Of a stretch of DNA of 64,000 bases, positions 43,532-57,727 are shown one piece after another. This DNA is from Neobacillus nitrireducens (GTDB lineage Bacteria; Bacillota; Bacilli; Bacillales; Cytobacillaceae). The position numbers were made by a program, and so were the translations under genes. Position 1 is the first letter of the stretch. The number at the start of each line of letters is the position of its first letter. The DNA lies in NCBI RefSeq assembly GCF_030915405.1, contig NZ_CP133262.1, positions 434,001-498,000 of the forward strand, read 5' to 3'. The notes under the pieces were generated by a model. That model did no database searches. It had not been told where the DNA came from and saw only the letters and a list, made by a program, of their open reading frames with translations.

Positions 43532-43542
43532 AATGTATACCT
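43532..43542 (+). promoter_or_regulatory. GntR-type operator box, autoregulatory position
   Basis: AATGTATACCT, with TTGGTAC just upstream, lies 18 bases before the GTG start of the first GntR gene. It is the first of the GTATAC boxes of this region. Confidence 0.5.
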
Positions 43543-43559
43543 GGAAAGAAGGAGAAATT

Positions 43560-44237
43560 GTGGGGAATAATTGGGCCGAGGAAGATCTAATATCTTTACG
43601 TGAGAGGGTCTTTATCCATATTAAAGACCTTATTTTAGAAGGTGAATTTAAAACCGGGGATCGTCTAGTGGAACGGGAACTTGCCGAACGATTAAATATT
43701 AGCAGAACGCCTATTCGTGAAGCATTATTTAGATTAGAATCGCAAGGGTTTGTAAAAACCGTTCCAAGAAAAGGTGTTATTGTCGCAGATATATCTGAGA
43801 AGGAAATCATTGAAGTATTTACAATTCTTTCTTCACTTGAGGTTTTGGCAGCCAAATTAGCTGTTCAGAAGCTGGACAATGAAACCAAAAGTAAATTTGT
43901 TGAGTACAGTAAAAAGGTGGAAGATTGTTTAAAGAATCAGAAGGATACTGATTTTACTCCTTTGCATAGTGAATTAAATCACCTTTTATATAGCTCGGCG
44001 AAGAATACAAAACTGTATGACATGCTGAGCGGTTTATCGGACTATATTCGCGCCTTTGCCAAGACAGGGTATAAAAACCCGGGCAGGGCTGTCCAATCGA
44101 TGGAAGAACACTTACGAATTATGGAAGCTATTATCAATCAAGAAATTGAAATGGCCGAGTATTTGACGAAAATTCATATTGAAAATTCTCGAAAAGCGTA
44201 TATTGAGGCAGTCAAACTAGGAAAAAAAGAGAAGTAA
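43560..44237 (+). CDS. GntR/FCD transcriptional regulator 1
   Basis: DNA-binding protein of 225 residues. The winged HTH (about 15-75) contains LVERELAERLNISRTPIREALFRLE; the all-helical FCD effector domain (90-215) follows, ending in HIENSRKAYIEA. A longer frame starting at ATG 43533 would run through the operator box; AAGGAG five bases before GTG 43560 makes that the start. It is closely related to the regulator at 56277, and together they bracket the gene set carrying GTATAC boxes. FCD proteins bind organic acids or amino acids, often with a metal. Confidence 0.9.
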   Translation: MGNNWAEEDLISLRERVFIHIKDLILEGEFKTGDRLVERELAERLNISRTPIREALFRLESQGFVKTVPRKGVIVADISEKEIIEVFTILSSLEVLAAKLAVQKLDNETKSKFVEYSKKVEDCLKNQKDTDFTPLHSELNHLLYSSAKNTKLYDMLSGLSDYIRAFAKTGYKNPGRAVQSMEEHLRIMEAIINQEIEMAEYLTKIHIENSRKAYIEAVKLGKKEK

Positions 44238-44238
44238 G

Positions 44239-44278
44239 AAAAAGAGAAACTCCATCCCAAGGTAGAGTTTCTCTTTTT
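44239..44278. terminator. Bidirectional terminator
   Basis: AAAAAGAGAAACTC with GAGTTTCTCTTTTT; separates the regulator from the convergent aspartate-dehydrogenase-like gene. Confidence 0.85.
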
Positions 44279-44292
44279 CTGTTAACTAATCA

Positions 44293-45099
44293 TTAAACGC
44301 CAATCACAACAGATGAAGTTAGGTTTTGCAATACTTTCGCTACACTCATGGCGACAATCGGGCTAGATTTAGGATTTTCCTTAAAAGGATTGTTTTGAAT
44401 GGTGGTTTCCATTTGCCCGAAATAACCCTTCGCTACAATGGTATGGGTATTCATTTGAATGGTTGGGTCTACATAAACTTGAACCTTTGTTTCCTCAAAG
44501 CCGATTCCAGCGAGGCTTAACGCTGCCGATACATTCACATTTTGAGGGAATAAATTTGCAGCACTTCTAGCATTTCCCTCAAAGATACAAACAGGATCTT
44601 TAATCGTTCCTAAATCAACCTTTTCCTCAGCAATTGTCCCATACCAACTTTTTGGCGGTTTTCGCGTAATCAGTGTGATTTCATCTATATCACCTAACAC
44701 CCCTGCGGCGATACGATCTAATCCTGCGATGGCTCCTGATGGGATTATCATTTGTTTTTTGCATTTCGCCGCAGCCGCCTGTAATTTCTCATAAAAGTCT
44801 AAATCCGCTAAAGCACCGACGGACAGGATGATTAAATGAAGTCCAGAGGTGAGGGCTTTTTCCCCGTATAATTGAAGGGCATGATGACCGGCCGCCTCAA
44901 TGATGATATCTAAATTTTGGGTAAAAAAAACATCTTCATTTGTAGTAACTGTACATTGAGCGGGTGAATAATCCAACGGACCAAGAGGGGTCCTTACCAA
45001 AATGGATTGAAGGACGACATCTCCGGCTTGTCCTGACTCAATTAATTTGCTAATACTCTTTCCCAGCGTTCCATAGCCAATGATACCAGCTCTAAGCAT
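44293..45099 (-). CDS. L-aspartate dehydrogenase-like (NadX family) enzyme
   Basis: NAD(P)-dependent enzyme of 268 residues. RAGIIGYGTLGKSISKLI binds the cofactor; IIPSGAIAGLDRI, LFPQNVNVSAALSLAGIGFE and NPFKENPKSSPIVAMSVAK match the aspartate dehydrogenase family and include its conserved active-site region. Canonical NadX makes iminoaspartate for NAD synthesis, but nadA and nadC are absent here, so a catabolic role on an amino or imino acid is more likely. ATG 45099 is nine bases from GAGG; ATG 45105 is the alternative. Paired GTATAC boxes lie 75-90 bases upstream. Confidence 0.82.
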   Translation of the reverse strand: MLRAGIIGYGTLGKSISKLIESGQAGDVVLQSILVRTPLGPLDYSPAQCTVTTNEDVFFTQNLDIIIEAAGHHALQLYGEKALTSGLHLIILSVGALADLDFYEKLQAAAAKCKKQMIIPSGAIAGLDRIAAGVLGDIDEITLITRKPPKSWYGTIAEEKVDLGTIKDPVCIFEGNARSAANLFPQNVNVSAALSLAGIGFEETKVQVYVDPTIQMNTHTIVAKGYFGQMETTIQNNPFKENPKSSPIVAMSVAKVLQNLTSSVVIGV

Positions 45100-45105
45100 C
45101 TTCAT

Positions 45106-45762
45106 TCTCCTCTTGATTAAATTTTACAGATCCGATTAACTAGAAAGCTATCATTCTATGTATATAAAATATTCTGTATACGGTATACCATTAATTTTCT
45201 ACATTTTAGCCGATTCGTCTAACAAAAGCAATAGTAATAACTTGAATATCAAAAGACTTCAAAATTTTCAAAATAGTTTGCAATGATAAAAGAATCATGG
45301 TATATTATTTTCAACCTTAAGGTAAACAAGGTGTACATAGTGGAAAGAAGGGGTGATTTTAATATTCCTAAAATTCAAACTACATAAAACTCAGAAAAGA
45401 AATCTGAAAGCGCATTCAACAGTAATTTTGTAGATGGAGAGCTTTAGGAAAGTAGAAAAATAGCTGGTAATGGAGGTTTCACTAAATTTAGTATTCAGTT
45501 GTATTCAATAATTCCGCAATATTTTTTACTACCATGGTATACAATCTACAGTATGCAAAATATAATCTTCATCATTTTATAAAGAATATTGGCATTGTTT
45601 ATCAATTTAGGAATTAAGAAAAGAACATCTGAAGTAGAGGATTTACACCATGAAAAAGATCATTTTCTAATGATTATTCCTCTCCCACGATCTTTTCCCA
45701 TATGTAAAGGAAATCTTTCGCTACAATCGTTTTAAACTATTTTAAAACAACGGAGGGGAAAT
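45106..45762. other. Gene-free 657-base divergent control region
   Basis: No credible coding frame. It separates the leftward dehydrogenase-like gene from the rightward permease gene. It holds CTGTATACGGTATACCA at 45175-45190 and ATGGTATACAAT at 45534-45545, plus a partial box ATGGTATATT near 45297. One operator group lies near each divergent gene, so both are likely controlled by the GntR proteins. Confidence 0.6.
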
Positions 45763-47202
45763 ATGGAATTAACAGCAGCTCATTGGGTATATCTAGTTGT
45801 CACTATAGCCGTTATAATTATCATGTTATTTAGAAAAGGTGTCGTATTACCACTTATTGTGGGAACCTTTATTGTGGCAGCTGTTTATAAAGGGAGCGTA
45901 ATTGGAGGTTTCCAAGCCGTCTTTAATGCAAACCTCGTGGCTGCCAAGGAACTTTTTAGTATTTTCCTAATCATTTCCATTATGATTGGTCTTCTTAATT
46001 CCTTAAAGGATCTTGGCGCCGATAAAAGGATGGTCGTGCCAATCCAAAAAATAATGGTAAACGGCCACGTTTCTTACTTAGTGTTAATGGTCACGACATT
46101 TGTGATTTCGCTCTTCTTCTGGCCAACCCCAGCTGTTCCATTAATTTGTGCATTATTAGTACCTGCGGCAGTAAGTGCCGGATTGCCGGTCATGACCTCA
46201 GCAATGGTTATTGTTATTGCAGGACAAGGTATGGCCCTTTCATCAGACTATATTATGCAAGTTGCCCCAATGTTAAGTGCAAAAGCCGCTGGAATTGATA
46301 AATCCTTAGTTTCAGATAAAGCCTTCATTCTCTCTCTTATTACGGGAATAACTTCACTTGCGATTGTGTATGCCACACATCGAAAAGCAATTACGAAAAG
46401 ATCTGTTAATGAGATGAACAATGAAAAAGTATTCTTCCAGGTTAGCGAAGAACTTGCTGCTACGGTAGAAGAAACTGCCGAAGTTATCAAGGTAAAAGAA
46501 AAATGGGGGAAAATCTTTGCGCTTATCGTACCCTTAGCGATGCTAGGTGTAATGATCTTTATGATTCAATCCAAATTTGGCGGTGGATCTGGATTTGAGG
46601 GTGGCGACGGCGCAGCTTTTATTGGTGGAGTTGCTACGATTCTCTTAGTTTTGGCGACAATTGCTTTTAACCGAATTCATGCGCTCGATAAAATCAGTGA
46701 GCATATTACGGAAGGATTTGTATTCGCTTTTAGAGCTATGGCTCCCGTCATCCCGATTGCTGGTTACTTCTTTATGGGAAGTGGTGACTTTTCAGCTTCC
46801 ATCCTCTCGTTAGGTGAAGATGCAGCGAAGCCGGGATTCCTATTTGATTTAATCCAAGCAGGTCAAAATTATATTCCACACAGCCCATTTATTGCAGCAT
46901 TTAGTATCTTAATCGTTGGTATCATTACCGGGTTAGATGGCTCTGGATTTGCAGGACTTCCGTTAACGGGTGCTTTGTCAGGAGCAATTGGACCTGGAAG
47001 TCACATCGATCCTTCTGTCCTTGCAGCTATTGGGCAAATGGGTGCAGTTTGGAGCGGTGGAGGTACGCTGATTGCCTGGTCATCTCTTGTTGCCGTTGCA
47101 GGCTTCCTACAAATATCACCGTTAGATCTGGCCCGAAAGAATTTCTTCCCAGTTATAACAGGACTTTTCATTGCAACTCTCTTGGCCGTTTTCATATGGT
47201 AA
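45763..47202 (+). CDS. Putative organic-acid permease, multi-pass
   Basis: Integral membrane protein of 479 residues with 11-12 membrane segments and a charged central loop (about 205-245). Gly-rich hairpin stretches in each half (FFWPTPAVPLICALLVPAAV and GIITGLDGSGFAGLPLTGAL) resemble ion-transporter-superfamily carriers of citrate/dicarboxylate or gluconate type. No close family is claimed. GGAGGGG precedes the ATG. Probably imports the substrate of the neighbouring enzymes. Confidence 0.7.
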   Translation: MELTAAHWVYLVVTIAVIIIMLFRKGVVLPLIVGTFIVAAVYKGSVIGGFQAVFNANLVAAKELFSIFLIISIMIGLLNSLKDLGADKRMVVPIQKIMVNGHVSYLVLMVTTFVISLFFWPTPAVPLICALLVPAAVSAGLPVMTSAMVIVIAGQGMALSSDYIMQVAPMLSAKAAGIDKSLVSDKAFILSLITGITSLAIVYATHRKAITKRSVNEMNNEKVFFQVSEELAATVEETAEVIKVKEKWGKIFALIVPLAMLGVMIFMIQSKFGGGSGFEGGDGAAFIGGVATILLVLATIAFNRIHALDKISEHITEGFVFAFRAMAPVIPIAGYFFMGSGDFSASILSLGEDAAKPGFLFDLIQAGQNYIPHSPFIAAFSILIVGIITGLDGSGFAGLPLTGALSGAIGPGSHIDPSVLAAIGQMGAVWSGGGTLIAWSSLVAVAGFLQISPLDLARKNFFPVITGLFIATLLAVFIW

Positions 47203-47270
47203 AGTAATAGTTAATTTTTAATTTAACTATTAAGTATACTAGATAGAAAAATTAGGGGTCGCTATTATAT

Positions 47271-47315
47271 AGGCTATTCCAAAAGTCAGCAGTGAACTGA
47301 TTTTTGGGATAGCCT
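47271..47315 (+). terminator. Terminator after the permease
   Basis: AGGCTATTCCAAAA and TTTTGGGATAGCCT with an inner GTCAG/CTGAT helix. A GTATAC box (AAGTATACTA) lies at 47232-47241. Confidence 0.7.
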
Positions 47316-47399
47316 TATTATTTGTAGTTTAAAACTGAAAACATGGGTTCAATTGTTTAGGAAGAAGTCATAATCTGAAATGAAGAGAGGGGATACAAG

Positions 47400-48104
47400 A
47401 TGAACAAAAGGATCGCTTTAGCAGGGATAGGTAAATTAGGGACGGCTTTGATGACTCATTGGGCTAAAAAGGGAATCGCAATCGGGGTTTACCATCCAGT
47501 CAAAACAAAAGCCGAGCATTTTCTGGAATCCTTCCCAAATGGCTTACTGTTAACAGAAAAAGAATTAAGAAATTTCGATGTATTTATTTTAGCACTGCCG
47601 GCAATGGAGGTTGTACCATTTATCTCAACATTCATCCTCCAAAATCAAACGCACCATTTACCGACTATCATTAATATGGCAACAAACATTCCCACTGAAG
47701 ATCTAAAGCGTAAGTTTCCAAAAATTAATATTCACGGTGTGAAGTATATGGGGCATTGGAAAGATTTATTGGAACATGGAAATGGTTTATTTATTTCTGA
47801 ATCCGCCTTACCTTCAAATATTAACGAGCTTTTTGCAGTGCTGGGCAATGTAAAGATAGATAGTGAAAGTTATTTAACCGAAGTAAATAAATTAGCAACC
47901 TATTTTGCTTTAAAAACAGCAATAGCCATAGAGACTGAATTTGTGACAAGAGGTTTATCACCAGAATACTTAAAAAGAGCGCTAACCTCGCTAGCGCCTG
48001 AAGTAATCCGTTCGTATAGTGAGGGGAGCCTTGGGCATTTTGCTAAGGAAATTGTCAAAGAGATCCAGGTAGAGAATCCTAGCGACGATCTTACAAGCTA
48101 TTAA
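47400..48104 (+). CDS. P5CR-like NAD(P)-binding oxidoreductase
   Basis: Soluble protein of 234 residues. RIALAGIGKLGTALMTHWAKKG is the Rossmann nucleotide site; the layout then follows pyrroline-5-carboxylate reductase/NADP oxidoreductase (F420-dependent-like) proteins, with a helical C-terminal part (TAIAIETEFVTRGLSPEYL). Suggests reduction of an imine or keto group. It follows the permease gene and lies within the GTATAC-box region. The ribosome binding site GAGAGGGGAT is strong. Confidence 0.7.
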   Translation: MNKRIALAGIGKLGTALMTHWAKKGIAIGVYHPVKTKAEHFLESFPNGLLLTEKELRNFDVFILALPAMEVVPFISTFILQNQTHHLPTIINMATNIPTEDLKRKFPKINIHGVKYMGHWKDLLEHGNGLFISESALPSNINELFAVLGNVKIDSESYLTEVNKLATYFALKTAIAIETEFVTRGLSPEYLKRALTSLAPEVIRSYSEGSLGHFAKEIVKEIQVENPSDDLTSY

Positions 48105-48108
48105 ATGA

Positions 48109-48140
48109 CAAAGGTGCCAATCCAATGATTGACACCTTTG
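48109..48140 (+). terminator. Hairpin after the P5CR-like gene
   Basis: CAAAGGTGCCAATC and GATTGACACCTTTG pair with one mismatch round a four-base loop. There is no T run, so termination is uncertain. It resembles the GGTGTCA repeats. Confidence 0.5.
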
Positions 48141-48221
48141 GCTATTAATATAAGCTTATGTCTTTTACTTAGATAACTGTCTAGCTCCAGCGCCGCTAAA
48201 TAGGCGCTACCGCATTTCTTA

Positions 48222-49607
48222 TTAAGATAAAAACAATTGCAAAATAAATAGATAGACCATGACAAAGCCGATATAAATACTGGCGAATGGAAGATTCCAG
48301 TTCGATACTTTATAGGAACTTTCCTTGACGATGTTTGACATCAGTCCTAACGTTGCATTATATGGGCCTACCATGAAGGCTGAAACCGCTCCGGCTAACA
48401 TCGCTACTGTTAGAATATGTGGTGATATCCCAACAATCTCCGGATTCAACCCTTCTGTCATTAAAGCTAATGATACGGCAGGATGCAGTCCTAAAAAGGC
48501 AAAAACCAACGGAATCAATGGCATTAATATTAAAAAAATCTCTATACCAGCGAAACTAATAAACTTATTAACCCAGGCATCCAGCCACACATTCGTATGG
48601 GAAACGTTAATCGTTGAGATGAAGAAACCTGTCGATAAAAAAATGAAGAATTGATCCTTCATACTTACAGAGAATGTTTGAAAATGCTTGATCAAGTGGG
48701 CACCGAACTCTTTACCCTGTTTTAATAACAATGACCATGAAAACGAAAATGGAATAACCAACAAAGATACTAAAATTAAAAACGGATAAGGAAACTTTGT
48801 TTCTACTAAAGAAATAATCACATTAAATATGATGATTGCCAGGAAAATTTGGAAGATTCTACTGGAACGATTTATCTGACCGGTTAATTCGATTGTGGCA
48901 GCCGTTTCGTGGGCATGTAGATTCTTTTTGTTATGGATCATGACATTTGCCTTTCGAGGACCAATATACCAATCCACCCCTATACCCACGATACTTAAAG
49001 GAATCACATAGGGTAGAATCGAAACCCAGCTTACCCCCGTCATCGTGATGACAATCCCGACAATCGGTGTAACAGGTGCCCAAAGAAGGGGCATGGCAAA
49101 ACCACGCGTAATCGCTCTGCTCATAAACCGTTCTTTATTTTCAACGGGAATGACATCTAAAGCAGGTCTAATGGAGTAGTAGGTCATTGGTAATGTGGCC
49201 AGATTCATAAAAATACTAAAAAAATACGAAATGCCAGATGTGATCATATAAAGTTGACCAGAGGTTTTTACCCTTTTTTGAATGAGGGCTTGTATCCCCC
49301 CGCTATAATTCCCTAATTTGATTGGAATCCCTAAAATTGGAATCAATGTAAACATGGTAAGCAAGTCCAGCATGGGTCCGAAAGAAAGGATGTATTGATG
49401 CCAGGAGGCCCCGCTTGTCCAAAGTAATAATACTCCAAGCAGCAAAAAGGTACCCCCTAAAACTTGAACGAATCGCTTCGCTTGAAATATGGTAAAAAGG
49501 ACAATGGCAAGACTTAAACAGGAGATGATGACCCCTAGATGAAGGACGGGAAAAAGCACATTTACTAAATACAATAATATCACGAAGAAAAACATATATC
49601 TTAGCAT
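48222..49607 (-). CDS. Second multi-pass permease
   Basis: Integral membrane protein of 461 residues with about 12 segments. FSIFMNLATLPMTYYSIRPAL and TRGFAMPLLWAPVTPIVGI in the first half and FLGLHPAVSLALMTEGLNPE in the second are distinctive; the general type is an ion-transporter/dicarboxylate carrier. No family assigned. Start ATG 49607 follows GGGTGG on the minus strand. A TTGTATACCAAA box lies 24 bases upstream, so it belongs to the same regulon. Confidence 0.7.
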   Translation of the reverse strand: MLRYMFFFVILLYLVNVLFPVLHLGVIISCLSLAIVLFTIFQAKRFVQVLGGTFLLLGVLLLWTSGASWHQYILSFGPMLDLLTMFTLIPILGIPIKLGNYSGGIQALIQKRVKTSGQLYMITSGISYFFSIFMNLATLPMTYYSIRPALDVIPVENKERFMSRAITRGFAMPLLWAPVTPIVGIVITMTGVSWVSILPYVIPLSIVGIGVDWYIGPRKANVMIHNKKNLHAHETAATIELTGQINRSSRIFQIFLAIIIFNVIISLVETKFPYPFLILVSLLVIPFSFSWSLLLKQGKEFGAHLIKHFQTFSVSMKDQFFIFLSTGFFISTINVSHTNVWLDAWVNKFISFAGIEIFLILMPLIPLVFAFLGLHPAVSLALMTEGLNPEIVGISPHILTVAMLAGAVSAFMVGPYNATLGLMSNIVKESSYKVSNWNLPFASIYIGFVMVYLFILQLFLS

Positions 49608-49630
49608 ATCCACCACCCTAACATATTAAG

Positions 49631-49643
49631 TTGTATACCAAAA
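49631..49643 (-). promoter_or_regulatory. GntR-type operator before second permease
   Basis: TTGTATACCAAAA, 24 bases before the permease start. Confidence 0.6.
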
Positions 49644-49700: not shown

Positions 49701-49713
49701 TTTGGTATACGAA
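49701..49713 (+). promoter_or_regulatory. GntR-type operator before the microprotein gene
   Basis: TTTGGTATACGAA, with an extra TTTGGTATTTGG half-site adjacent. It lies just upstream of a TTGTTT...TATACA promoter-like pair (about 49719-49745). Confidence 0.6.
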
Positions 49714-49784: not shown

Positions 49785-49871
49785 ATGTTTAACTTTCTAT
49801 TTGGATCTAAAAGTGCTAAAGAAAAAGCTGAGAGAAAATTAGCATCACTAAGAAAAACACTGAAGTTTTAG
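49785..49871 (+). CDS. 28-residue basic microprotein
   Basis: Sequence starts MFNFLFGSKSAKEKAERK and ends with LRKTLKF. It is amphipathic, lysine-rich and without cysteines. Support for reality is structural: a TAGGGGGAAC ribosome binding site at correct spacing, its own promoter and operator upstream, and a perfect intrinsic terminator 11 bases after the stop. The whole 210-base unit contains nothing else. Possible roles: membrane-associated peptide or small regulator of a neighbouring permease. A short aromatic head (FNFLF) could insert in the membrane. Confidence 0.6.
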   Translation: MFNFLFGSKSAKEKAERKLASLRKTLKF

Positions 49872-50201: not shown

Positions 50202-50537
50202 CTAAACTGCTTGTTCAGCTGATTTAACTAGTTTGGAGTTAACGGAATCTTCACTGTTACCAGACGCCTTGACAATTTCAGCTAATTCATCGCGGGCAGC
50301 GTCGATCGTATCAAACTTTTCAAAAAACTTGACTGCAATTTGATTAACATACTCTTTTCCTTCATAGTTTTCGAATAATTGAATTTTAATTGTTTCATCA
50401 AGAACTTCGGCAATGGTGTACTTTGCTTTTAAACTATCAAAGAAATAGAAATGGTAGGTTTCAATCGGTTTTAAACCATCATTTTCAAGAATCGTTTGGA
50501 AAGTATCTTTATTCGTTAAGACAATATATTTCCCCAT
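50202..50537 (-). CDS. Orphan protein of the GntR regulon, 111 residues
   Basis: Soluble, mixed-charge protein beginning MGKYIVLTNKDTFQTILEND and rich in aromatic residues (TYHFYFFD). No cysteine, no membrane segment, no motif that I recognise. AGGAGTG lies before ATG 50537, and a TTGTATACCAAA box 22 bases beyond. Presence of an operator and position between the permease and ferredoxin genes imply a role in the pathway, perhaps as an accessory subunit of the oxidase; this is a guess from context. Confidence 0.65.
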   Translation of the reverse strand: MGKYIVLTNKDTFQTILENDGLKPIETYHFYFFDSLKAKYTIAEVLDETIKIQLFENYEGKEYVNQIAVKFFEKFDTIDAARDELAEIVKASGNSEDSVNSKLVKSAEQAV

Positions 50538-50558: not shown

Positions 50559-50570
50559 TTGTATACCAAA
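50559..50570 (-). promoter_or_regulatory. GntR-type operator before the orphan gene
   Basis: TTGTATACCAAA. A second, weaker box GATTGTATACTTC at 50721-50733 lies before the ferredoxin gene on the other side of this divergent gap. Confidence 0.6.
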
Positions 50571-50779
50571 CTACTTAAGTGTATTTTATCTCATGAGGTA
50601 AGAATGTTCAAGGATATATTCTAAATATTTAAATTATTGCTGCAACTGTTGGTAGTTTAGTTGATTTACATGAAAAATTTCAATCCAACTAAAAATTCTA
50701 GTTTGCTTCTCTAACAAAAAGATTGTATACTTCAGAAAAGTATCAAAATTTTTAGAATAAACAGAAAGGGGAAATCAAT

Positions 50780-51109
50780 ATGCCAAAAGTAATCCTTCAT
50801 GTTGATGGAACGACAATTGAACAAGAGGTAAAAGATAATGCCAATTTAGTAGTATTAGCAGGTACCCGTCAACTACCAAAATTAAAATATGGGTGTGGCA
50901 TGGGACGATGTACAAAATGTACATGTATCGTTGTAAATGGCGCTGAGTCATTATCGCCACCGAATTGGAAAGAAGAAAAAATGCTTGGAGATAAAGTTAA
51001 TGAGGGATACCGCTTAACATGCCAACTAACGATAAAAGAGGATATTGAAATTTCTCAAGAAAATATTTCAATCCAAGCCCCGAAGAAACAATCAGCTATT
51101 CAATCCTAA
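50780..51109 (+). CDS. 2Fe-2S ferredoxin 1 (plant/adrenodoxin-like fold)
   Basis: Electron carrier of 109 residues. Cluster ligands Cys39, Cys44, Cys47 and Cys81 fit CX4CX2C...C (CGMGRCTKC and LTCQL). AAGGGG precedes the ATG. It stands two genes before the diiron oxidase and is the natural electron donor candidate. No ferredoxin reductase gene is present in the window, so a general reductase would have to supply electrons. Confidence 0.88.
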   Translation: MPKVILHVDGTTIEQEVKDNANLVVLAGTRQLPKLKYGCGMGRCTKCTCIVVNGAESLSPPNWKEEKMLGDKVNEGYRLTCQLTIKEDIEISQENISIQAPKKQSAIQS

Positions 51110-51132: not shown

Positions 51133-51145
51133 ATGGTATACAAAA
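51133..51145 (+). promoter_or_regulatory. GntR-type operator before creatininase gene
   Basis: ATGGTATACAAAA in the 63-base gap between ferredoxin 1 and the amidohydrolase gene. Confidence 0.6.
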
Positions 51146-51172: not shown

Positions 51173-51949
51173 ATGGAATGTTATGATTTAACCGCTATGA
51201 CCTGGAAAGAAGTAGAAGAGTCACTCAAAACTGTTCAACTTGCGATTATTCCGATTGGAGCTCATGAACAACATGGTCCCCATATGGTGGAAAGCTGTGA
51301 TGCGGTCTTAGCTGAAAAAATGGCTCTAAAGTTAGGGCAACGGATGTTTCCATATGCAATGGTAGCACCAACTATTAATATGGGTGTTTCACAACACCAT
51401 CTGAATTTTCCGGGGACAATTTCTTTGCAGCCCACAACGTTAATTTCCATATTAAAGGATGTCATTTCATCCCTGAAACATCATGGAATTGGAAAATTTT
51501 TATTATTAAATTCACATGGTGGTAACCAATCGACACTAAATGTGGCCTCCATGATGTTAACTAACGAATTAGACGTAGAAATATACTATGCTAAAACAAC
51601 AGGCTCTGCCAAGACGGCGATAAAGGAAAATGTTACTTCACCATTATTTGGGCATAGCTGTGAACGGGAAGTTTCCGAAGCACTTTATTTAGCGCCTGAG
51701 ATTGTCAGACTTGAAAACCTTGAAATAGGTGATATTCAAGAAGAGGGAAGATGGAAGCAGCTTCGTCCCGGTAAAGCAATCCAAGGATTTTACTATTATG
51801 AAGAAATGACAAAAAACGGCAATATCGGGGATGCAACCAAAGCTAGCTGGGAAATAGGCCAGCAGATCGTTGAGGAAGCATTGGATAATCTATCGAATGA
51901 ACTCTCTAAATTATTAGATTTAAAAGTAGATGCGCATCAAAAAATGTAG
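51173..51949 (+). CDS. Creatininase-family amidohydrolase
   Basis: Metal-dependent hydrolase of 258 residues. Metal ligands are seen in PIGAHEQHGPHM (Glu32, His34) with Asp43, then HHLNFPGT, LLNSHGGN and GHSCEREVSEAL, the last replacing the family's HAGxxETS. The family opens cyclic or linear amides (creatinine, formamides, others). The altered last motif suggests a substrate other than creatinine. Ribosome binding site AAGAGGTGA. Between ferredoxin 1 and the diiron oxidase, each with its own operator box. Confidence 0.85.
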   Translation: MECYDLTAMTWKEVEESLKTVQLAIIPIGAHEQHGPHMVESCDAVLAEKMALKLGQRMFPYAMVAPTINMGVSQHHLNFPGTISLQPTTLISILKDVISSLKHHGIGKFLLLNSHGGNQSTLNVASMMLTNELDVEIYYAKTTGSAKTAIKENVTSPLFGHSCEREVSEALYLAPEIVRLENLEIGDIQEEGRWKQLRPGKAIQGFYYYEEMTKNGNIGDATKASWEIGQQIVEEALDNLSNELSKLLDLKVDAHQKM

Positions 51950-52032: not shown

Positions 52033-52046
52033 AAGGTATACCAAAT
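52033..52046 (+). promoter_or_regulatory. GntR-type operator, distal, before HDO gene
   Basis: AAGGTATACCAAAT, one of two boxes 80 bases apart ahead of the diiron oxidase. Confidence 0.6.
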
Positions 52047-52115
52047 CGATAAATTCACCAAATAAAAGAGGGTTGGAATGAGAAGTTGACCATCATCTTT
52101 TTATTTTTAATCTAA

Positions 52116-52130
52116 TTTGGTATACAAAAT
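52116..52130 (+). promoter_or_regulatory. GntR-type operator, proximal, before HDO gene
   Basis: TTTGGTATACAAAAT, 56 bases before the TTG start. An open frame running back through it (to 52117) is therefore leader, not protein. Confidence 0.65.
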
Positions 52131-52185
52131 ATCAAATACCAATTTAGGATTGGGTACCTACATAAAATTAGAGGAGGAATTTCAG

Positions 52186-52917
52186 TTGACAGAATTATTA
52201 TCTAAAGATGAGTTTCGCAAACAATTAGAAGAAGCAATTAAAGGTAACCATAGCCAGAAGGCTCCATTTACAGTAGCATGGGCTGAAGGGAAACTTGGAA
52301 GAAAGCACTTTTCTAGATGGGCTGAAAATCACTACCATTATGTAGGACCATTCGCAGATTACCTAGCGTATATTTACCACAACACTCCATCAGATCCAAA
52401 GTTTGCATCTGCAAAAGATTTCACTCTTCAAAATATGTATGAAGAAGAAATCGCTGCAGATCGTCACACTGATTTATTAATTCGCTTTGCAGAAGCATGT
52501 GGTACAACTGCAGAAAGAATTATCGACCCTAACAATATGGCTCCTACGACTTTAGGTCTTCAAAGCTGGTGTTTCGCAGTAGCTGCGCGTGAGAATTTCG
52601 TCGTAGCAACTGCAGCTCTAGTTGTAGGCTTAGAATCACAAGTACCTGACATTTACCGTAAACAAACTCCTGCTCTTCGTGAACAGTATGGATTTACGGA
52701 TGAAGAAATTGAATTCTTCGACTTACACATCGTTTCAGATGAAATTCATGGTGAGCGCGGTTACAAAATCGTTCTAGACCACGCGGATACACCTGAGTTA
52801 CAACAACGTTGCTTAGAAGTTGTTCGTACAGGAGCAAAAATGCGCCGTATGTACATGGATGGTCTTTGGAGAGAATACTGTGAGCAAGATTTAGGTGCTT
52901 TAGTAGAAACGAAGTAA
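52186..52917 (+). CDS. Heme-oxygenase-like diiron oxidase (CADD/PqqC-like HDO)
   Basis: Helical oxidase of 243 residues. Candidate iron ligands are Glu87 and His94 (YEEEIAADRH), Glu150 (ALVVGLES) and the trio His181-x3-Asp185-x2-His188 (HIVSDEIH). The spacing Glu-x6-His ... Glu ... HxxxDxxH follows that recalled for CADD, and the last trio that of SznF. Automatic naming as PQQ synthase PqqC or thiaminase TenA would mislead: no pqq or thi gene is near, and the ligands point to a dinuclear iron site. GAGGAGG at 52171 selects TTG 52186. The gene has two operators and, downstream, a terminator. Confidence 0.8.
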   Translation: MTELLSKDEFRKQLEEAIKGNHSQKAPFTVAWAEGKLGRKHFSRWAENHYHYVGPFADYLAYIYHNTPSDPKFASAKDFTLQNMYEEEIAADRHTDLLIRFAEACGTTAERIIDPNNMAPTTLGLQSWCFAVAARENFVVATAALVVGLESQVPDIYRKQTPALREQYGFTDEEIEFFDLHIVSDEIHGERGYKIVLDHADTPELQQRCLEVVRTGAKMRRMYMDGLWREYCEQDLGALVETK

Positions 52918-52932
52918 TAAGAAAATTTTACC

Positions 52933-52985
52933 GGCCGTCCTATTAATCTTGTAATTTAAAGGTTTAAGTGACGGCCCTTTTTTTA
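52933..52985 (+). terminator. Terminator after HDO gene
   Basis: GGCCGTC at 52933-52939 with GACGGCC at 52970-52976, then T7; the loop is long (30 bases). Confidence 0.65.
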
Positions 52986-53026
52986 TAAAAAACAGGGAAC
53001 TTAATAAATGAAAAAAGGTGATAGTA

Positions 53027-54490
53027 GTGATTACTACGAAAGTAGAAACATTTAATAATTATATTAATGGAGAATGGCAGGAGTCGGTGAGTAAGAAGAC
53101 GTTTTTTAGTGTGAACCCTGCAAATACTGAAGATGTAGTGGGAGAATTTCAGGCTTCGAATGAACAAGATGTAAAAACTGCGATAGAAGCGGCCAAAAAT
53201 GCTTTTCCTAGTTGGTCGCAAACTGCCCCTTCTAGGCGTGCGGCCATCTTAAATCAAGCCGCTAATATATTAGAACAAAATGTGGCCGCCTTGGCCGAAG
53301 AGTTAACAAGGGAAGAAGGCAAGCATGTTGAGGATGCCAAGAATGAAGTGATCCGTTCAGCGCAAACGCTCCGCTATTATGCTGTAGAAGGACAAAGCTT
53401 TACGGGGGAAACCTTTCCAAATGATGATGCAAACATGAAAGTTTCAACGGAGAGAGAAGCGCTTGGAGTAGTAAGTGTCATCACTCCTTGGAACTTTCCA
53501 CTTTCGATTCCTGCCCGAAAAATAGCTCCTGCTTTAATTACGGGGAATACGGTTGTATTTAAACCATCCTCTGATACTCCACTGATTGCATTCCGCTTAG
53601 TCGAAGCACTAGCTAAGGCAGGAATTCCTAAAGGTGTGATTAACTTTGTAACGGGCAAAGCTTCAGATGTGGGTGATCTATTGGTAACCCATCCTGCAGT
53701 TAGGGCCGTCACATTTACAGGTTCAACCGCAGCCGGAGAAGATATTCATAGCAAGGCCTCTTTTACAACGCGCACTCAAATGGAGCTTGGCGGGAAAAAT
53801 CCGTTAATTGTTATGGAAGATGCGGATCTCGATCTAGCAGCCACTTTGACTGTAAATGGAGCCTATTCCTTAACAGGGCAAGCATGTACCGGAACAAGCC
53901 GGGTCATTGTTTTAAAAGAAGTGAAAGAGGAATTTACTCAAAAGCTAGTACAAAAAACTAGTGCGCTAAAGATCGGAAATGGCTTCGAAGCAGGAGTGAA
54001 AATTGGGCCGCTAGCTAACGAAAAACAACTGAAAAATGTCTTGAAGTATATTGAATTTGGTAAAGAAGATGGTGCAGATTTAGTATACGGCGGGGAGCAA
54101 ATCCTTACCGGAGAATTCGAAAAAGGATACTATATTGAGCCTGCAATTTTCACCAATGTAAAACCGAATTCGCGAATTGCGAAAGAAGAGATCTTTGGAC
54201 CGGTAGTGGCAGTGATTGAAGTAGATACATATGAAGAAGCCATTGCTGTTGCTAATGATGTTGAGTATGGTTTGTCTGCCTCAATTGTTACCAATAATCT
54301 CAAAATCGCTAACCAATTTACAAAGGATATCCAAGCCGGGACGGTTAAGGTTAACCGTACGACGACTGGAAACCTAATGAATGCGCCATTTGGCGGTCTG
54401 AAAAAATCAAGTACTTCCACTTTCCGTGAATCCGGAAGAGTGGGTCTAGAGTTCTTTACCCAATTAAAAACTGTCTATATGGGCTATTAA
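53027..54490 (+). CDS. Aldehyde dehydrogenase, ketoglutarate-semialdehyde type
   Basis: NAD(P)-dependent dehydrogenase of 487 residues. Oxyanion Asn in TPWNFPLSIP, cofactor loop FTGSTAAGEDIH, general base Glu253 (MELGGKNP) and catalytic Cys287 (TGQACTGTSR). Overall pattern and C terminus (PFGGLKKSS...FFTQLKTVYMGY) resemble B. subtilis GucD/YcbD, a 2,5-dioxovalerate dehydrogenase; a related semialdehyde is the likely substrate. AAAGGTG sets GTG 53027 as start over 53018. First gene after the HDO terminator, with no own operator box visible, so it may depend on read-through. Confidence 0.88.
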   Translation: MITTKVETFNNYINGEWQESVSKKTFFSVNPANTEDVVGEFQASNEQDVKTAIEAAKNAFPSWSQTAPSRRAAILNQAANILEQNVAALAEELTREEGKHVEDAKNEVIRSAQTLRYYAVEGQSFTGETFPNDDANMKVSTEREALGVVSVITPWNFPLSIPARKIAPALITGNTVVFKPSSDTPLIAFRLVEALAKAGIPKGVINFVTGKASDVGDLLVTHPAVRAVTFTGSTAAGEDIHSKASFTTRTQMELGGKNPLIVMEDADLDLAATLTVNGAYSLTGQACTGTSRVIVLKEVKEEFTQKLVQKTSALKIGNGFEAGVKIGPLANEKQLKNVLKYIEFGKEDGADLVYGGEQILTGEFEKGYYIEPAIFTNVKPNSRIAKEEIFGPVVAVIEVDTYEEAIAVANDVEYGLSASIVTNNLKIANQFTKDIQAGTVKVNRTTTGNLMNAPFGGLKKSSTSTFRESGRVGLEFFTQLKTVYMGY

Positions 54491-54519
54491 AATAATATAT
54501 TATCTAAAGGAGAACAAAA

Positions 54520-54999
54520 ATGAAATCTGTGTTGAAATTAGAACTAGAAGAAGCGAAGTTAATGATTGAAGCAGCAAAGAAAAAGTCGGAAGAGATCCAT
54601 GTTTTAGAAACCATCGCTATTGTCGATGATGGAGGCAACCTGCTAGCGCTTGAACGTATGAATGGCGCACGCATCACTGGACCGGATATATCGATTGCGA
54701 AAGCATACACAGCTGCAGGCCATAAACGCTCAACGCATTTATTTAACAAAGAGCCTAATGGACCTGCACTTCCTGGAAATGAAGCCTTTGGAATTCAACA
54801 AATGCTTCCAGGGAAATTCGCCATTTTTGTTGGAGGTTTTCCAATTGTTGTCGATGGTGAGGTTATTGGTGGAATTGGCGTGAGCGGTGGGAACGGCGAG
54901 CAAGACACGGCCGTAGGAACAGCAGCCTTGAAAGCATTGCAAAGCTATGTAGAAAGTGCCGGGCATGAAGTAATCACTGTAGCTGATATAAAAAAATAA
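54520..54999 (+). CDS. GlcG/HbpS-family protein
   Basis: Soluble protein of 159 residues, family PF03928. ETIAIVDDGGNLLALERMNGA and GGFPIVVDGEVIGGIGVSGG are its signature. Members bind haem or cobalamin-like ligands or act as unknown accessory proteins beside glycolate, propanediol and aromatic pathways. AAAGGAG precedes the ATG. No signal peptide, so intracellular. Thirty bases after the aldehyde dehydrogenase gene, hence in the same operon. Confidence 0.85.
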   Translation: MKSVLKLELEEAKLMIEAAKKKSEEIHVLETIAIVDDGGNLLALERMNGARITGPDISIAKAYTAAGHKRSTHLFNKEPNGPALPGNEAFGIQQMLPGKFAIFVGGFPIVVDGEVIGGIGVSGGNGEQDTAVGTAALKALQSYVESAGHEVITVADIKK

Positions 55000-55008
55000 T
55001 AAAAGCAG

Positions 55009-55044
55009 GACCTCATTCAACGCATTTTTTAGCAGAATGAGGTC
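55009..55044 (+). other. Hairpin after GlcG gene
   Basis: GACCTCATTC and GAATGAGGTC form ten pairs, loop 16 bases, without a T tail: perhaps a partial terminator. A degenerate box TTGGTATAAAA (55090-55100) follows. Confidence 0.45.
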
Positions 55045-55114
55045 TATCTTAATCTCAGGTTCTATAAAAAGTAGTGTTAGAATGTTATATTGGTATAAAA
55101 AGGGGGAGAGTCAA

Positions 55115-55705
55115 CTGAAAGCATATTTGGAGTTAGCTATTGGATTTGCTCGTACTGGAGTGACTGGCTATGGCGGTGGACCCTCGACAATACCGTTGAT
55201 TGAATTTGAAGCTGTCAAAAAATACAAATGGATGAATGAGGATGAATTTGTAGAAATACTGGCATTAGCTAATACCTTGCCAGGGCCGATTGCAACTAAA
55301 ATGGCGGCGTATATTGGTTATAAAGTGAAGGGGTATTTAGGGGCGACCGTAGCTATTCTAACTCACATTCTACCATCTATTATTGCGATGATCGCATTAT
55401 TGGGCGTGCTTTACAAATTTAAGGAATCACCGATTGTCAGTGGGATGGTTCAAGGGGTTACGCCTGTCATTGGTTTTATGCTTTTGGAGATGGCTTACCG
55501 TTTCTTCCAAAATGGCCGTAAAGGTTTGGGGTTACCAATCATGCTCTCATTGTCGGTCGTTTCATTAATATTTGTCCAGTTCCTAGGATTGCATCCCGGA
55601 ATCTTAATTGCGGTCTTTCTTATTACTGCCTTTTTTATAGCGGACCGAAAAGAAAAAGCTGCTGCAGCTGCGGCGCTTCTTCAGAGAAAGGAAAAAAGTT
55701 CATGA
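55115..55705 (+). CDS. CHR-type transporter, first half
   Basis: Membrane protein of about 196 residues, six segments. FARTGVTGYGGGPSTIPLIEFE and LANTLPGPIATKMAAYIGYKVKGY are the chromate-ion-transporter (CHR) signatures. The start is uncertain: an AGGGGGAG site sits six bases before CTG 55115, while the nearest ATG (55082) has no site. If right, this is a rare CTG start. Short CHR proteins act as pairs of inverted halves; the partner follows. Within this regulon the real substrate is probably an organic or inorganic oxyanion from the pathway, not chromate. Confidence 0.75.
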   Translation: MKAYLELAIGFARTGVTGYGGGPSTIPLIEFEAVKKYKWMNEDEFVEILALANTLPGPIATKMAAYIGYKVKGYLGATVAILTHILPSIIAMIALLGVLYKFKESPIVSGMVQGVTPVIGFMLLEMAYRFFQNGRKGLGLPIMLSLSVVSLIFVQFLGLHPGILIAVFLITAFFIADRKEKAAAAAALLQRKEKSS

Positions 55706-56232
55706 TCTATTTGCATATCTTTTGGGCATTTTTTATTGCTAATTTATTGGGTTATGGCGGCGGACCTGCAACCATTCCATTAATTCAAAATGAAGTGGTC
55801 AACAATTATCACTGGATGAGTTTATCCGAGTTTGGAGATGTATTGGCGATTGGTAATGCCTTACCCGGACCGATTGCTACTAAAATGGGAGGCTATATTG
55901 GATATGACGTCGGTGGGATTCTAGGTTCGATTATCGCACTTATAGCTACAATTCTTCCTTCCGCACTCGCAGTCATTATACTATTTAAATTTGTGAATCT
56001 ATTTAAAGGGTCACCCAAAGTATCGCTTATGACCAAGTCAGTACAGCCGATTATTGCTATTTTACTTGCTGTAATGGCGTATCAATTCTTTTTAACCGCT
56101 TATGAAAATAGTGGTATTTTTCACCTGCTGCTATTGGCAGTGGTCAGCTATTTTGCATTAAGTAAAATAAAAATGCATCCTTCTCTAGTCATTATTTGTG
56201 CATTAATTTATGGTGGTGTATTTCTCTCGTAA
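55702..56232 (+). CDS. CHR-type transporter, second half
   Basis: Membrane protein of 176 residues, homologous to the preceding one: LLGYGGGPATIPLIQNEV and IGNALPGPIATKMGGYIGYDVGG. It overlaps the first half by four bases (ATGA), so equal amounts are made. The pair makes one functional transporter. No chromate or superoxide resistance gene is near. Confidence 0.85.
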   Translation: MIYLHIFWAFFIANLLGYGGGPATIPLIQNEVVNNYHWMSLSEFGDVLAIGNALPGPIATKMGGYIGYDVGGILGSIIALIATILPSALAVIILFKFVNLFKGSPKVSLMTKSVQPIIAILLAVMAYQFFLTAYENSGIFHLLLLAVVSYFALSKIKMHPSLVIICALIYGGVFLS

Positions 56233-56276
56233 CCTGGGATTTTGGAAAAAACTTTAAAAATGAGCGGGTGGAGTTT

Positions 56277-56978
56277 ATGGATATAAGCTGGGAGGAAAAC
56301 AATCTTTTATCGATTCGAGAGCATGCCTATAAATACCTTAAGGAAATGATACTTGAGGGCGAACTAAAAGCAGGCGACCGGTTAATTGAAAGAGAGCTTG
56401 CAGGGAAATTGGGCATTAGTCGGACTCCGATTCGGGAGGCGTTGTTCCGGTTGGAATCTCAAGGCTTTGTTAAAACAGTTCCAAGAAAAGGTGTCGTCGT
56501 CAGTAATATTTCTGAAAATGAAGTCATCGAGGTATTTACAATTCTTGCCTCTTTAGAAGTTTTGGCTGTTAAATTAGCAGCAAGGCGAATGGATAGAGAA
56601 ACACAGCTAGAATTGGATCAAAAGATTGAAGAACTAATCGAGTTCAATGATCAGGCGGAAGAAAACTTTAATCTTGAACATATTGAAATGAATCGTTTGA
56701 TTAATAAAGCATCGAAAAGTCCTAAATTATTAGAGATTCTCTCTGGTCTGATTGACTATATACATATGTCAGCAAATATGGGCTATGAGACACCAGGAAG
56801 AAGAAAAGAATCCTTAAGGGAACATATTGATATTATGACAGCCTTGCGCGATAAGGAAGCGGAAATGGCGGAGTATTTAATGAGGATTCATATTGAAAAC
56901 TCGAAAAAGGCATATATCACTTATATTAAGAGTTTAAAAGAAAAGCTTAATAAAAAGGAAAAATTGATGTCCACTTGA
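56277..56978 (+). CDS. GntR/FCD transcriptional regulator 2
   Basis: Paralogue of the regulator at 43560, 233 residues. The HTH (LIERELAGKLGISRTPIREA) and the stretch FRLESQGFVKTVPRKGV are nearly the same in both; the FCD ligand domain differs more, so the two may read the same boxes with different effectors. Start ATG 56277 with GGGTGGAG rather close (three bases). The frame is open further upstream, into the CHR gene, but that part is not protein-like. Terminator follows at 57026. Confidence 0.9.
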   Translation: MDISWEENNLLSIREHAYKYLKEMILEGELKAGDRLIERELAGKLGISRTPIREALFRLESQGFVKTVPRKGVVVSNISENEVIEVFTILASLEVLAVKLAARRMDRETQLELDQKIEELIEFNDQAEENFNLEHIEMNRLINKASKSPKLLEILSGLIDYIHMSANMGYETPGRRKESLREHIDIMTALRDKEAEMAEYLMRIHIENSKKAYITYIKSLKEKLNKKEKLMST

Positions 56979-57025
56979 TCCGTTCCTATTTATGATCTTG
57001 GAGTGGAACGAACATCTATATTAAT

Positions 57026-57051
57026 GACCACACCGTCTCCTCGATGTGGTC
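57026..57051 (+). terminator. Terminator after GntR 2
   Basis: GACCACA and TGTGGTC around a 12-base loop, then TTATCTTT. Confidence 0.6.
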
Positions 57052-57117
57052 TTATCTTTACCCTTATCAGAAAAATATAAATATTTGAAATTTATTATTG
57101 TTTGAAAATTGTAAATA

Positions 57118-57134
57118 TGGTATATTGTATACCA
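57118..57134 (+). promoter_or_regulatory. GntR-type operator before ferredoxin 2
   Basis: TGGTATATTGTATACCA is a perfect inverted repeat of TGGTATA with a three-base spacer, 30 bases before the second ferredoxin gene. Confidence 0.65.
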
Positions 57135-57164
57135 AGAAGATAAATATAAGGGAGGACACGAGGC

Positions 57165-57515
57165 ATGCCAAAAATAAATTTCATTAACAGTAATAAACAA
57201 TTAGAGGTGCCAGAGGATGCAAATATTTTAAGGATGTCCCTCCGTTACGATGGAGAACTCCCAAACCGATGCGGCGGGGGAATTTGTGGCAGCTGCGTAT
57301 TTAAAGCGGAGGAAGGTGCTGAATTCCTCGATAAAGTCAAGGTGCAGGAAAGAAGAAAATTAGGTGAAGAATGGCTAAATAAAGGGTACCGCCTCGGCTG
57401 TCAAACATTTGTGACGAATGGAGATATCTCGATTTCTTGGGATGATGAAGTTACAGAAGTAGTCAAAAAAAGAAAGCCCGATAAACTTCAGAAAGAAGTC
57501 TCAACTATTAAATAA
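57165..57515 (+). CDS. 2Fe-2S ferredoxin 2
   Basis: Electron carrier of 116 residues with cluster ligands Cys36, 41, 44 (RCGGGICGSC) and Cys79 (RLGCQ). Its fold is that of ferredoxin 1 but the loop is GGGI instead of GMGR, and it ends in a lysine-rich tail. GGAGG sets the start. With its own operator box, it is the last clear member of the regulon. It may give electrons to the same oxidase or to an enzyme elsewhere. Confidence 0.88.
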   Translation: MPKINFINSNKQLEVPEDANILRMSLRYDGELPNRCGGGICGSCVFKAEEGAEFLDKVKVQERRKLGEEWLNKGYRLGCQTFVTNGDISISWDDEVTEVVKKRKPDKLQKEVSTIK

Positions 57516-57547
57516 GAAGTAAAAAAATATGAATTCGGGGTGAGATC

Positions 57548-57727
57548 ATGTGGGCCTGTGACAGACATATGAAAGAAATATTAACCTTCTTAGAAACTCC
57601 CCATATTAGTAAAGCTTCCTATCAGATTAAATGTTCACTATGCGATAACCATGCACTTGCAAAAATCTATTATACGCATAAACCCCTGCATTTGAAGGAG
57701 AACAAAAAACTTCGTTCACTGGCTTAG
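57548..57727 (+). CDS. Small CxxC protein, 59 residues
   Basis: Starts MWACDRHMKEILTFLE and has CSLCDNHALAKIYY in the middle: a CxxH and a CxxC pair that could bind zinc. GGGGTGAG precedes the ATG. It follows ferredoxin 2 by 32 bases and could be in its transcript. I recall similar short Bacillus proteins without a known role. Confidence 0.6.
   Translation: MWACDRHMKEILTFLETPHISKASYQIKCSLCDNHALAKIYYTHKPLHLKENKKLRSLA

Follow-up and report, generated by a model that had tools for sequence, protein, structure and literature searches.

Multicomponent soluble diiron monooxygenases, and Rieske oxygenases with BenC-type reductases, combine an oxygenase with a ferredoxin, a reductase and an aldehyde dehydrogenase in one catabolic operon. 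Here we describe a gene cluster at positions 43533-57515 of a 64-kb stretch of the Neobacillus nitrireducens genome (contig NZ_CP133262.1; the whole stretch is referred to as the window) that would work in a similar manner, but whose predicted oxygenase belongs to the heme-oxygenase-like family PF14518 and not to the ferritin-like or Rieske types. The superfamily of heme-oxygenase-like dimetal oxidases (HDOs) numbers more than 10,000 proteins, about a dozen of them functionally validated, with 3H/3C as the majority ligand set (PMC13108848). In the consulted text of that 2026 review, HDOs are presented in biosynthesis, the word "ferredoxin" is absent, "catabol" occurs once, for heme, and no catabolic member is named. 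Two kinds of HDO invite comparison with the one in the window. The CADD-type 4-aminobenzoate synthases (PDB entries 1rcw, 8va9 and 9pj4) share its family and its ligand positions, but the window protein lacks the residues corresponding to Tyr27 and Lys152 of CADD, scores below the NCBIfam cut-off, and is encoded among genes for ferredoxins, a permease and an aldehyde dehydrogenase (ALDH). MboA, the HDO of mangotoxin synthesis, is served by the flavin/Fe2S2 reductase MboB and, according to its authors, may be the first HDO to have a redox partner of its own (PMC13185094). A Fer2-FAD-NAD reductase family is encoded in most proteobacterial loci described below, though not in the window's cluster; MboAB is biosynthetic and acts on a tripeptide, and the consulted part of that report names no ferredoxin pair, no permease and no relative of U114, the small protein introduced below.

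Judging from the conserved gene content, the cluster on balance probably encodes a catabolic, ferredoxin-driven diiron oxygenase pathway, in which an imported small organic anion would be converted through a semialdehyde to a central metabolite. A more specific version, quite possible but short of probable, would make this the first catabolic HDO, served by two ferredoxins with U114 as coupling or electron-transfer subunit; it would oxygenolytically cleave a carbon-heteroatom bond in a widespread soil anion (possibly an aminosulfonate or an N-substituted amino acid) to give a semialdehyde, and would be shared between phyla together with a GTATAC-reading regulator. A preliminary description of the window knew of no described pathway with this gene set, and we found none in open-licence PMC full text (CC0, CC BY and CC BY-SA), where no title or abstract start among the matches listed describes the set. 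For homarine degradation, which we take to be an analogue, no title or abstract start among the matches listed describes such a set. A term search of the fitness papers PMC9007349 and PMC12543098 gave no occurrence. The superfamily is known, but no member of this kind is described among the open-licence PMC matches listed.

The HDO and its conserved neighbourhood

Gene families were assigned with Pfam and NCBIfam, and these scans bore out the gene content given in the preliminary description. The HDO matched PF14518 at 118.9 bits (cut-off 28.9) and PF03070 at 40.7 bits (cut-off 22), which places it in the superfamily, and a PDB profile search with 19 HDO sequences returned 9pj4 (E 8.5e-26) and the CADD structures 1rcw and 8va9. 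Its predicted metal ligands, E87, H94, E150, H181, D185 and H188, align with those of 9pj4 and the two CADD structures in the pattern E-x6-H, E, H-x3-D-x2-H, given the CADD residues that we take to be metal ligands. All six positions were invariant in the 120 listed homologues (of 1218), which corresponds to a 3H/3C set. Two other CADD residues, Tyr27 and Lys152, are presumably sacrificed in 4-aminobenzoate synthesis, with Lys152 as the donor. Among the same 120 homologues, the Tyr27 position is occupied by Ser (87), Thr (32) or Ala (1), and the Lys152 position by Gln throughout; a self-sacrificing 4-aminobenzoate synthase is therefore unlikely. The HDO also remained below the cut-offs of the CADD family TIGR04305 (94 bits, cut-off 200) and of the PqqC family TIGR02111 (44.1 bits, cut-off 240).

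Conservation in the window's own lineage was examined in 20 loci of the same family (14-20 kb each; L120-L139), picked by the presence of the HDO, and in four extra loci from other families of the same order, picked by a U114 search (L170-L173). The neighbourhood, presented earlier as a single system, was conserved within the family: GntR2, creatininase, HDO, Fdx1, Fdx2, U114, ALDH, GlcG and Perm2 were present in all 20 HDO-picked loci (the remaining genes are listed in Table 1), and the flanking genes YyaC, CAP and GhrB in 15, 4 and 3 of the 20, respectively. All four loci from other families carried the HDO and kept the order Fdx1-Creat-Perm1-HDO-ALDH-GlcG. Strong HDO matches (E < 1e-100), including one interrupted by an in-frame stop, were obtained in 50 of 193 genomes of the family and in 7 of its 25 genera, and 397 other genomes sampled over the phylum gave no HDO match at 1e-30. 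Outside the family, U114 was found in 4 of 24 genomes of the same order, each time with an HDO beside it. The occurrence is patchy, as would be expected of an optional catabolic trait.

For Proteobacteria, the query was built from 19 aligned HDOs with an Achromobacter protein at the head, and it yielded at least 517 confirmed relatives. The best 80, ranked by likeness to the Achromobacter protein, were retained (27 Achromobacter, 22 Cupriavidus, then Variovorax, Paraburkholderia, Bradyrhizobium, Azospirillum, Acetobacteraceae and others), with the other 437 outside the counts; two plasmid loci were added, giving 82 loci, all picked by HDO, in 23 genus-level groups. Genes in these high-GC loci were called with a simple gene caller of our own, GntR counts may take in unrelated GntR genes up to 10 kb away, and some Achromobacter loci end early on the side of the SorAB genes discussed below.

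The core of the cluster recurred in Alpha- and Betaproteobacteria. Besides the HDO (82 of 82 loci), we found ferredoxins and U114 in 80 each, GlcG and GntR in 79 each, Perm1 in 72 and ALDH in 70; further genes were the reductase family (64), TauE (51), the ornithine-cyclodeaminase (OCD) family (36) and an amidase (20). Counted by genus-level group, ferredoxins, U114 and GlcG occurred in 22 of 23, GntR in 21, Perm1 in 17, ALDH in 14, the reductase in 10, TauE and OCD in 8 each and the amidase in 3. Median identity to the window proteins was 68% for both HDO and GlcG, 62% for ALDH, 54% for Fdx1, 48% for Perm1, 47% for Fdx2, 35% for U114 (58 loci aligned over 60%) and 32% for GntR. NadX, creatininase, P5CR, Perm2, ChrA and ChrB were found in none of the 82 loci (tblastn, 1e-5), so the core chemistry would not need NadX, P5CR, creatininase, Perm2 or the CHR proteins, which the preliminary description had counted among its parts. 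Across phyla the conserved neighbourhood thus held but shrank to a core, which consists of the HDO, two [2Fe-2S] ferredoxins, U114, an ion-transporter (IT)-fold permease, GlcG, ALDH and GntR. In some of the Proteobacteria, the own-lineage add-ons are replaced by amidases, a reductase of the OCD family and an exporter of the TauE type.

Both ferredoxins matched PF00111 and contain the motif C-x4-C-x2-C...C, which identifies them as plant-type [2Fe-2S] ferredoxins. U114, a core member that was missing from the earlier gene list, had as its best Pfam match across 59 members only one at E 0.015. Of 36 genomes of the window's genus that were searched for both proteins, 14 gave a strong HDO match (E < 1e-100), and every one of these also had U114; the remaining 22 had neither a strong HDO nor U114. 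In 77 of the 82 proteobacterial loci, ferredoxin, U114 and ferredoxin genes are contiguous on one strand, and 3 of the 120 listed U114 homologues (of 1445) are U114-Fer2 fusions (P0135, P0154 and P0210). From this genetic association we infer that U114 is a putative redox-coupling subunit. The Fer2-FAD-NAD reductase family, of which one member was scanned, lies near the HDO in 64 of the 82 loci.

Among the remaining core proteins, the predicted model of Perm1 shows an IT/elevator fold over most of the chain, which places it in the IT superfamily; it resembles sulfate and isethionate carriers, among others, and the fold is also common to carboxylate carriers. The ALDH reached 592.5 bits against the alpha-ketoglutaric semialdehyde dehydrogenase family NF042993 (cut-off 770); against the PDB it had no match at 1e-100, and betaine aldehyde dehydrogenases, which lead at 1e-75, are uninformative. 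GlcG fell below the cut-off of both NCBIfam families that it matched. It can be likened to GlcG, EfgA and PduO-C, small DUF336 proteins of aldehyde pathways; EfgA, a relative of solved structure, is a formaldehyde sensor according to the consulted part of its report (PMC8153426).

Among the add-ons, the creatininase protein belongs to the PF02633 superfamily and stayed below the cut-offs of TIGR04448 (101.5 against 235 bits) and of TIGR03964, MftE (101.8 against 172). NadX exceeded the subfamily cut-offs of NF009828 (242.6 against 177) and NF009829 (188 against 184) and missed those of the equivalogs NF009830 (230 against 267) and TIGR03855 (204.6 against 206.55). The P5CR-like reductase of the preliminary description is a weak call, with ProC at E 1.3e-4 and 21.7 bits (cut-off 196.75) and a box of its own in 1 of 18 relatives. 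The proteobacterial OCD-family protein matched the iminosuccinate reductase BhcD among others, at 113 bits against a cut-off of 500, with higher scores for other families. A gamma-glutamyltransferase (GGT)-type gene and an alpha/beta hydrolase gene occurred in 4 of the 82 loci each, none with its own box (one member per family was scanned). By family assignment, these non-homologous add-ons appear to fill similar niches across phyla: putative amide or ester hydrolysis (creatininase; amidase, GGT and alpha/beta hydrolase), predicted imine or amino-acid redox chemistry (NadX and the P5CR-like protein; the OCD family) and predicted anion export (ChrBA; TauE).

Two further observations concern the proteobacterial loci. 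A protein of 60-74 aa without a Pfam match is encoded near the HDO in all 27 Achromobacter loci (L038, 9542-9766, minus strand); a relative occurs in 22 of the 55 other proteobacterial loci (L118, 16850-17032, plus strand) and adjoins GntR in the Cupriavidus loci examined. Some clusters, in Kaistia and one Cupriavidus, hold two HDO copies of this subfamily (L110, 9986-10723 and 18892-19629; L068, 5900-6631 and 10001-10732).

The GTATAC box

The repeated GTATAC box noted in the preliminary description was confirmed. The window contains 25 copies against 7.3 +/- 2.7 in shuffles, and region 43447-57855 holds 12 copies in its 2962 intergenic bases and 2 inside genes; shuffles predict 0.34 intergenic copies (Poisson 4e-15), and the box density elsewhere in the window predicts 0.66 (Poisson 7e-12). 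Boxes were then scored up to 250 bases upstream of genes in the 24 own-lineage loci and up to 300 bases upstream in the proteobacterial loci.

In the own lineage, the box preceded HDO (48 boxes), Perm2 (47 boxes) and creatininase in 24 of 24 loci, U114 in 23/24, Fdx1 in 21/24, Fdx2 in 19/24, NadX in 17/19, Perm1 in 17/23 and GntR1 in 14/23. It was rare before P5CR (1/18), ChrB (2/22) and GntR2 (1/23), and was found before no ALDH (0/24), GlcG (0/24) or ChrA (0/22), nor before the flanking genes YyaC (0/10), CAP (0/4) and GhrB (0/3). The proposal that the genes share the box thus holds for HDO, creatininase and U114, among others, but hardly for ALDH, GlcG, ChrB, ChrA and GntR2.

In Proteobacteria, 188 of the 249 upstream regions of core genes contained GTATAC, a 12-fold enrichment over its density in the loci as a whole; a few rarer palindromes match or exceed this enrichment ratio. 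It preceded Perm1 in 70 of 72 cases (16/16 groups), HDO in 75 of 84 (17/23 groups), TauE in 44 of 51 (4/8 groups), the amidase in 20 of 20 (3/3 groups), GntR in 47 of 80, ALDH in 34 of 70 and OCD in 8 of 36, against a background of 61 of 748 other genes. Counts were low for ferredoxins (11/157), GlcG (3/78), U114 (1/80), the reductase (0/65), GGT (0/4) and the alpha/beta hydrolase (0/4), as is expected of genes inside an operon. The regulator type and the GTATAC box are thus conserved between phyla. Creatininase and the amidase are unrelated and both boxed, so two kinds of amide hydrolase stand under one box.

The two FCD-family GntR regulators that the preliminary description had called paralogous are 56% identical. 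With the box in front of the same genes in relatives, the genes form a candidate FCD-GntR regulon with GTATAC as putative operator. Searching the whole genome with a 12-base palindrome added no regulon members, since there were 329 matches compared with 316 for a reversed control.

Proposed pathway and alternative explanations

In the proposed pathway, Perm1 would import the anionic substrate. Electrons from the ferredoxins would reduce the diiron site of the HDO, and U114 would take part as a small partner for coupling or redox transfer. The electrons could come from the BenC-like NAD(P)H reductase present in most proteobacterial loci; clusters that have no such gene close by, like that of the window, would depend on a housekeeping reductase. 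The HDO would oxygenate a carbon beside a leaving group, the product collapsing to a semialdehyde, which GlcG may buffer or sense and ALDH would oxidise. Peripheral hydrolases (creatininase, amidase and others) might release the substrate from its amides or esters, an amino- or imino-acid product might be handled by NadX or the OCD-family reductase, and ChrBA or TauE could export an anionic by-product. The boxed promoters would be controlled by GntR, whose action substrate or product would relieve. The earlier scheme of oxidation, amide hydrolysis and semialdehyde oxidation is plausible in outline, with a nitrogen-containing substrate and its ring opening as hypothetical elements, but only oxidation and aldehyde handling are represented in the cross-phylum core. 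Amide hydrolysis gains support from the boxes before unrelated amide hydrolases (creatininase 24/24, amidase 20/20). Alpha-ketoglutaric semialdehyde arises in the glucarate and hydroxyproline pathways, and the ALDH scores best against the corresponding NCBIfam dehydrogenase; unlike those pathways, the cluster matched no sugar-acid dehydratase or hydroxyproline epimerase family in the scans, and its ALDH remains below the cut-off.

Several observations weigh against a catabolic, ferredoxin-driven pathway. HDOs are biosynthetic in the consulted text of the review (PMC13108848). The close ferredoxin-U114-ferredoxin arrangement of the Proteobacteria does not extend to the own lineage, where the U114 gene diverges from Fdx1 and is separated from Fdx2. 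A fold search with a U114 model (pLDDT 75.6) detected no relative. One U114 homologue (P0163) passes the cut-off of the Pfam family Phage_Bbp19 over 27 residues (30.4 bits, cut-off 25), a match that may be a true relation or a local resemblance. The Pfam and NCBIfam scans of the cluster genes revealed no dedicated reductase in the window's cluster. In Proteobacteria, 9 of 23 groups have no ALDH close to the HDO and 6 of 23 have no Perm1 there; the box precedes the HDO in 17 of 23 groups, not in every one, and ALDH in 34 of 70 cases, compared with 0 of 24 among the window's relatives. Furthermore, the 82 loci are not independent, with 27 from Achromobacter and 23 from Cupriavidus.

Four other explanations were considered. 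In a specific version of the pathway, the HDO would be an oxygenolytic desulfonase that hydroxylates a sulfonate-bearing carbon, yielding a semialdehyde for ALDH and sulfite, which would either leave through TauE or ChrBA or be oxidised by SorAB; with an aminosulfonate such as homocysteate, the product would be aspartate semialdehyde, leading to aspartate and NadX. This fits the likeness of the Perm1 model to sulfate and isethionate carriers, the assignment of NadX to the aspartate dehydrogenase family, the BhcD match of the OCD protein, and the exporters, as TauE occurs in 51 of 82 proteobacterial loci (boxed in 44 of the 51) and CHR genes in 18 of 20 same-family loci. In 15 of the 27 Achromobacter loci, sulfite dehydrogenase genes adjoin the HDO divergently (L038, 7798-9355, minus strand; SorA 697 bits, cut-off 600; SorB 98 bits, cut-off 93). 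Against it, a search of the 55 other proteobacterial and the 24 Bacillota-side loci found no SorAB, TauE is boxed in only 4 of 8 groups, both exporter families are broad, the OCD protein falls far short of the BhcD cut-off and matches other families better, and the Perm1 fold is shared with carboxylate carriers. Since SorAB was found only in Achromobacter among these loci, we demoted it as proof of sulfite release; SorAB and the exporters make sulfite a possible by-product, and we regard desulfonation as an unlikely rival. It is rather improbable that the cluster serves natural-product biosynthesis or a stress response, with the HDO modifying an amino acid and Perm1, ChrBA or TauE exporting the product. 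The biosynthetic roles of the HDOs in the consulted review text and the exporter families CHR and TauE speak for it, but the scans of core genes revealed no ligase, ATP-grasp or synthetase family, and uptake and breakdown are the better fit for an IT-fold permease together with ALDH, GlcG and the boxed amide hydrolases.

There is a small chance that the genes form several independent units which share a regulator by descent. The scarcity of boxes before P5CR and from ALDH to GntR2, and the loss of NadX, P5CR and ChrBA in some loci, would agree with this; the nine genes present in every same-family locus and the recurrence of the same core and box in Proteobacteria argue otherwise. Very improbable is a role in making a cofactor, after the manner of CADD-type 4-aminobenzoate synthases or PqqC, with the other genes as mere neighbours. 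The nearest solved structures are indeed 4-aminobenzoate synthases, the NCBIfam CADD family does match, and some sources label homologues as PQQ synthase, but the scores below both cut-offs, the replaced Tyr27 and Lys152 positions and the permease and ALDH within the conserved, box-sharing set stand against it.

Features of the window cluster and significance

We counted 15 protein genes (109-490 aa) and a conserved 28-aa open reading frame (ORF) in the cluster (Table 1), rather than the "seventeen or so" genes of the preliminary description. Most lie between the two GntR genes as stated there, but Fdx2 falls outside the bracket, and the CHR-type exporter, which matches PF02417, is encoded by two half-size genes instead of one.

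Table 1. Genes and GTATAC boxes of the cluster, in window coordinates (n/20, same-family loci)
Feature	Position	Strand	Evidence or remark
GntR1, FCD-family regulator	43533..44237	+	PF00392+PF07729; 17/20; GTATAC at 43535 overlaps gene start
NadX-like, aspartate dehydrogenase family, add-on	44293..45105	-	NF009828; PDB 2dc1 E 1e-38; 16/20
Two neighbouring GTATAC boxes before NadX	45176..45188		sequence
GTATAC box before Perm1	45537..45542		sequence
Perm1, IT-superfamily-fold permease, core member	45763..47202	+	predicted model; 19/20
GTATAC box before P5CR-like gene	47234..47239		not conserved: 1/18 relatives
P5CR/6PGDH-like NAD(P)-binding reductase, weak call	47400..48104	+	17/20
Perm2, second permease	48222..49616	-	no Pfam family; 20/20
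GTATAC box between Perm2 and 28-aa ORF	49633..49638		sequence
GTATAC box between Perm2 and 28-aa ORF	49705..49710		sequence
28-aa ORF MFNFLFGSKSAKEKAERKLASLRKTLKF	49785..49871	+	ribosome site; terminator-like hairpin behind at 49883-49906
U114, undescribed 111-aa core protein	50202..50537	-	20/20; 80/82 proteobacterial loci
GTATAC box before U114	50561..50566		sequence
GTATAC box before Fdx1	50725..50730		sequence
Fdx1, [2Fe-2S] ferredoxin	50780..51109	+	PF00111; C-x4-C-x2-C...C at residue 39
GTATAC box before creatininase	51136..51141		24/24 own-lineage loci
Creatininase-superfamily amidohydrolase, add-on	51173..51949	+	PF02633 205.5 bits; 20/20
First GTATAC box before HDO	52036..52041		sequence
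Second GTATAC box before HDO	52120..52125		sequence
HDO, heme-oxygenase-like dimetal oxidase	52186..52917	+	PF14518 118.9 bits
ALDH, aldehyde dehydrogenase	53018..54490	+	NCBIfam best match alpha-ketoglutaric semialdehyde dehydrogenase
GlcG/HbpS-like (DUF336) protein	54520..54999	+	PF03928 126.3 bits; PDB 2a2l, EfgA 6bws
ChrB-type half-size CHR exporter	55037..55705	+	PF02417; 18/20
ChrA-type half-size CHR exporter	55702..56232	+	PF02417; 18/20
GntR2, FCD-family regulator	56274..56978	+	56% identical to GntR1; 20/20
GTATAC box before Fdx2	57127..57132		sequence
Fdx2, [2Fe-2S] ferredoxin	57165..57515	+	PF00111; C-x4-C-x2-C...C at residue 36

The 28-aa ORF was kept in 17 of the 20 loci L120-L139 and found in none of L170-L173. 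Its 16 equal-length copies differ by 107 synonymous and 69 non-synonymous codon differences, and it is perhaps an undescribed microprotein of the regulon. Between HDO and ALDH, positions 52918-53017 contain an inverted repeat of 7 bases, rich in GC, and then a run of T, which looks like an attenuator or terminator within the enzyme block. GC-rich stretches that resemble each other and contain AGCTCCAGCGCC occur in the gaps near 48180 and 49990; they may represent a dispersed repeat of the genome. An Rfam scan of 43400-57900 returned nothing at gathering score.

With about 68% identity between the window and proteobacterial HDOs, a fixed gene set and redox partners, this system offers a tractable target for finding the function of an HDO. 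U114 and the 28-aa ORF represent undescribed protein families with a clear genetic assignment. A catabolic role, if true, would extend the multicomponent catabolic oxygenases by one more oxygenase fold and would point to an environmental compound with previously unknown breakdown genes.

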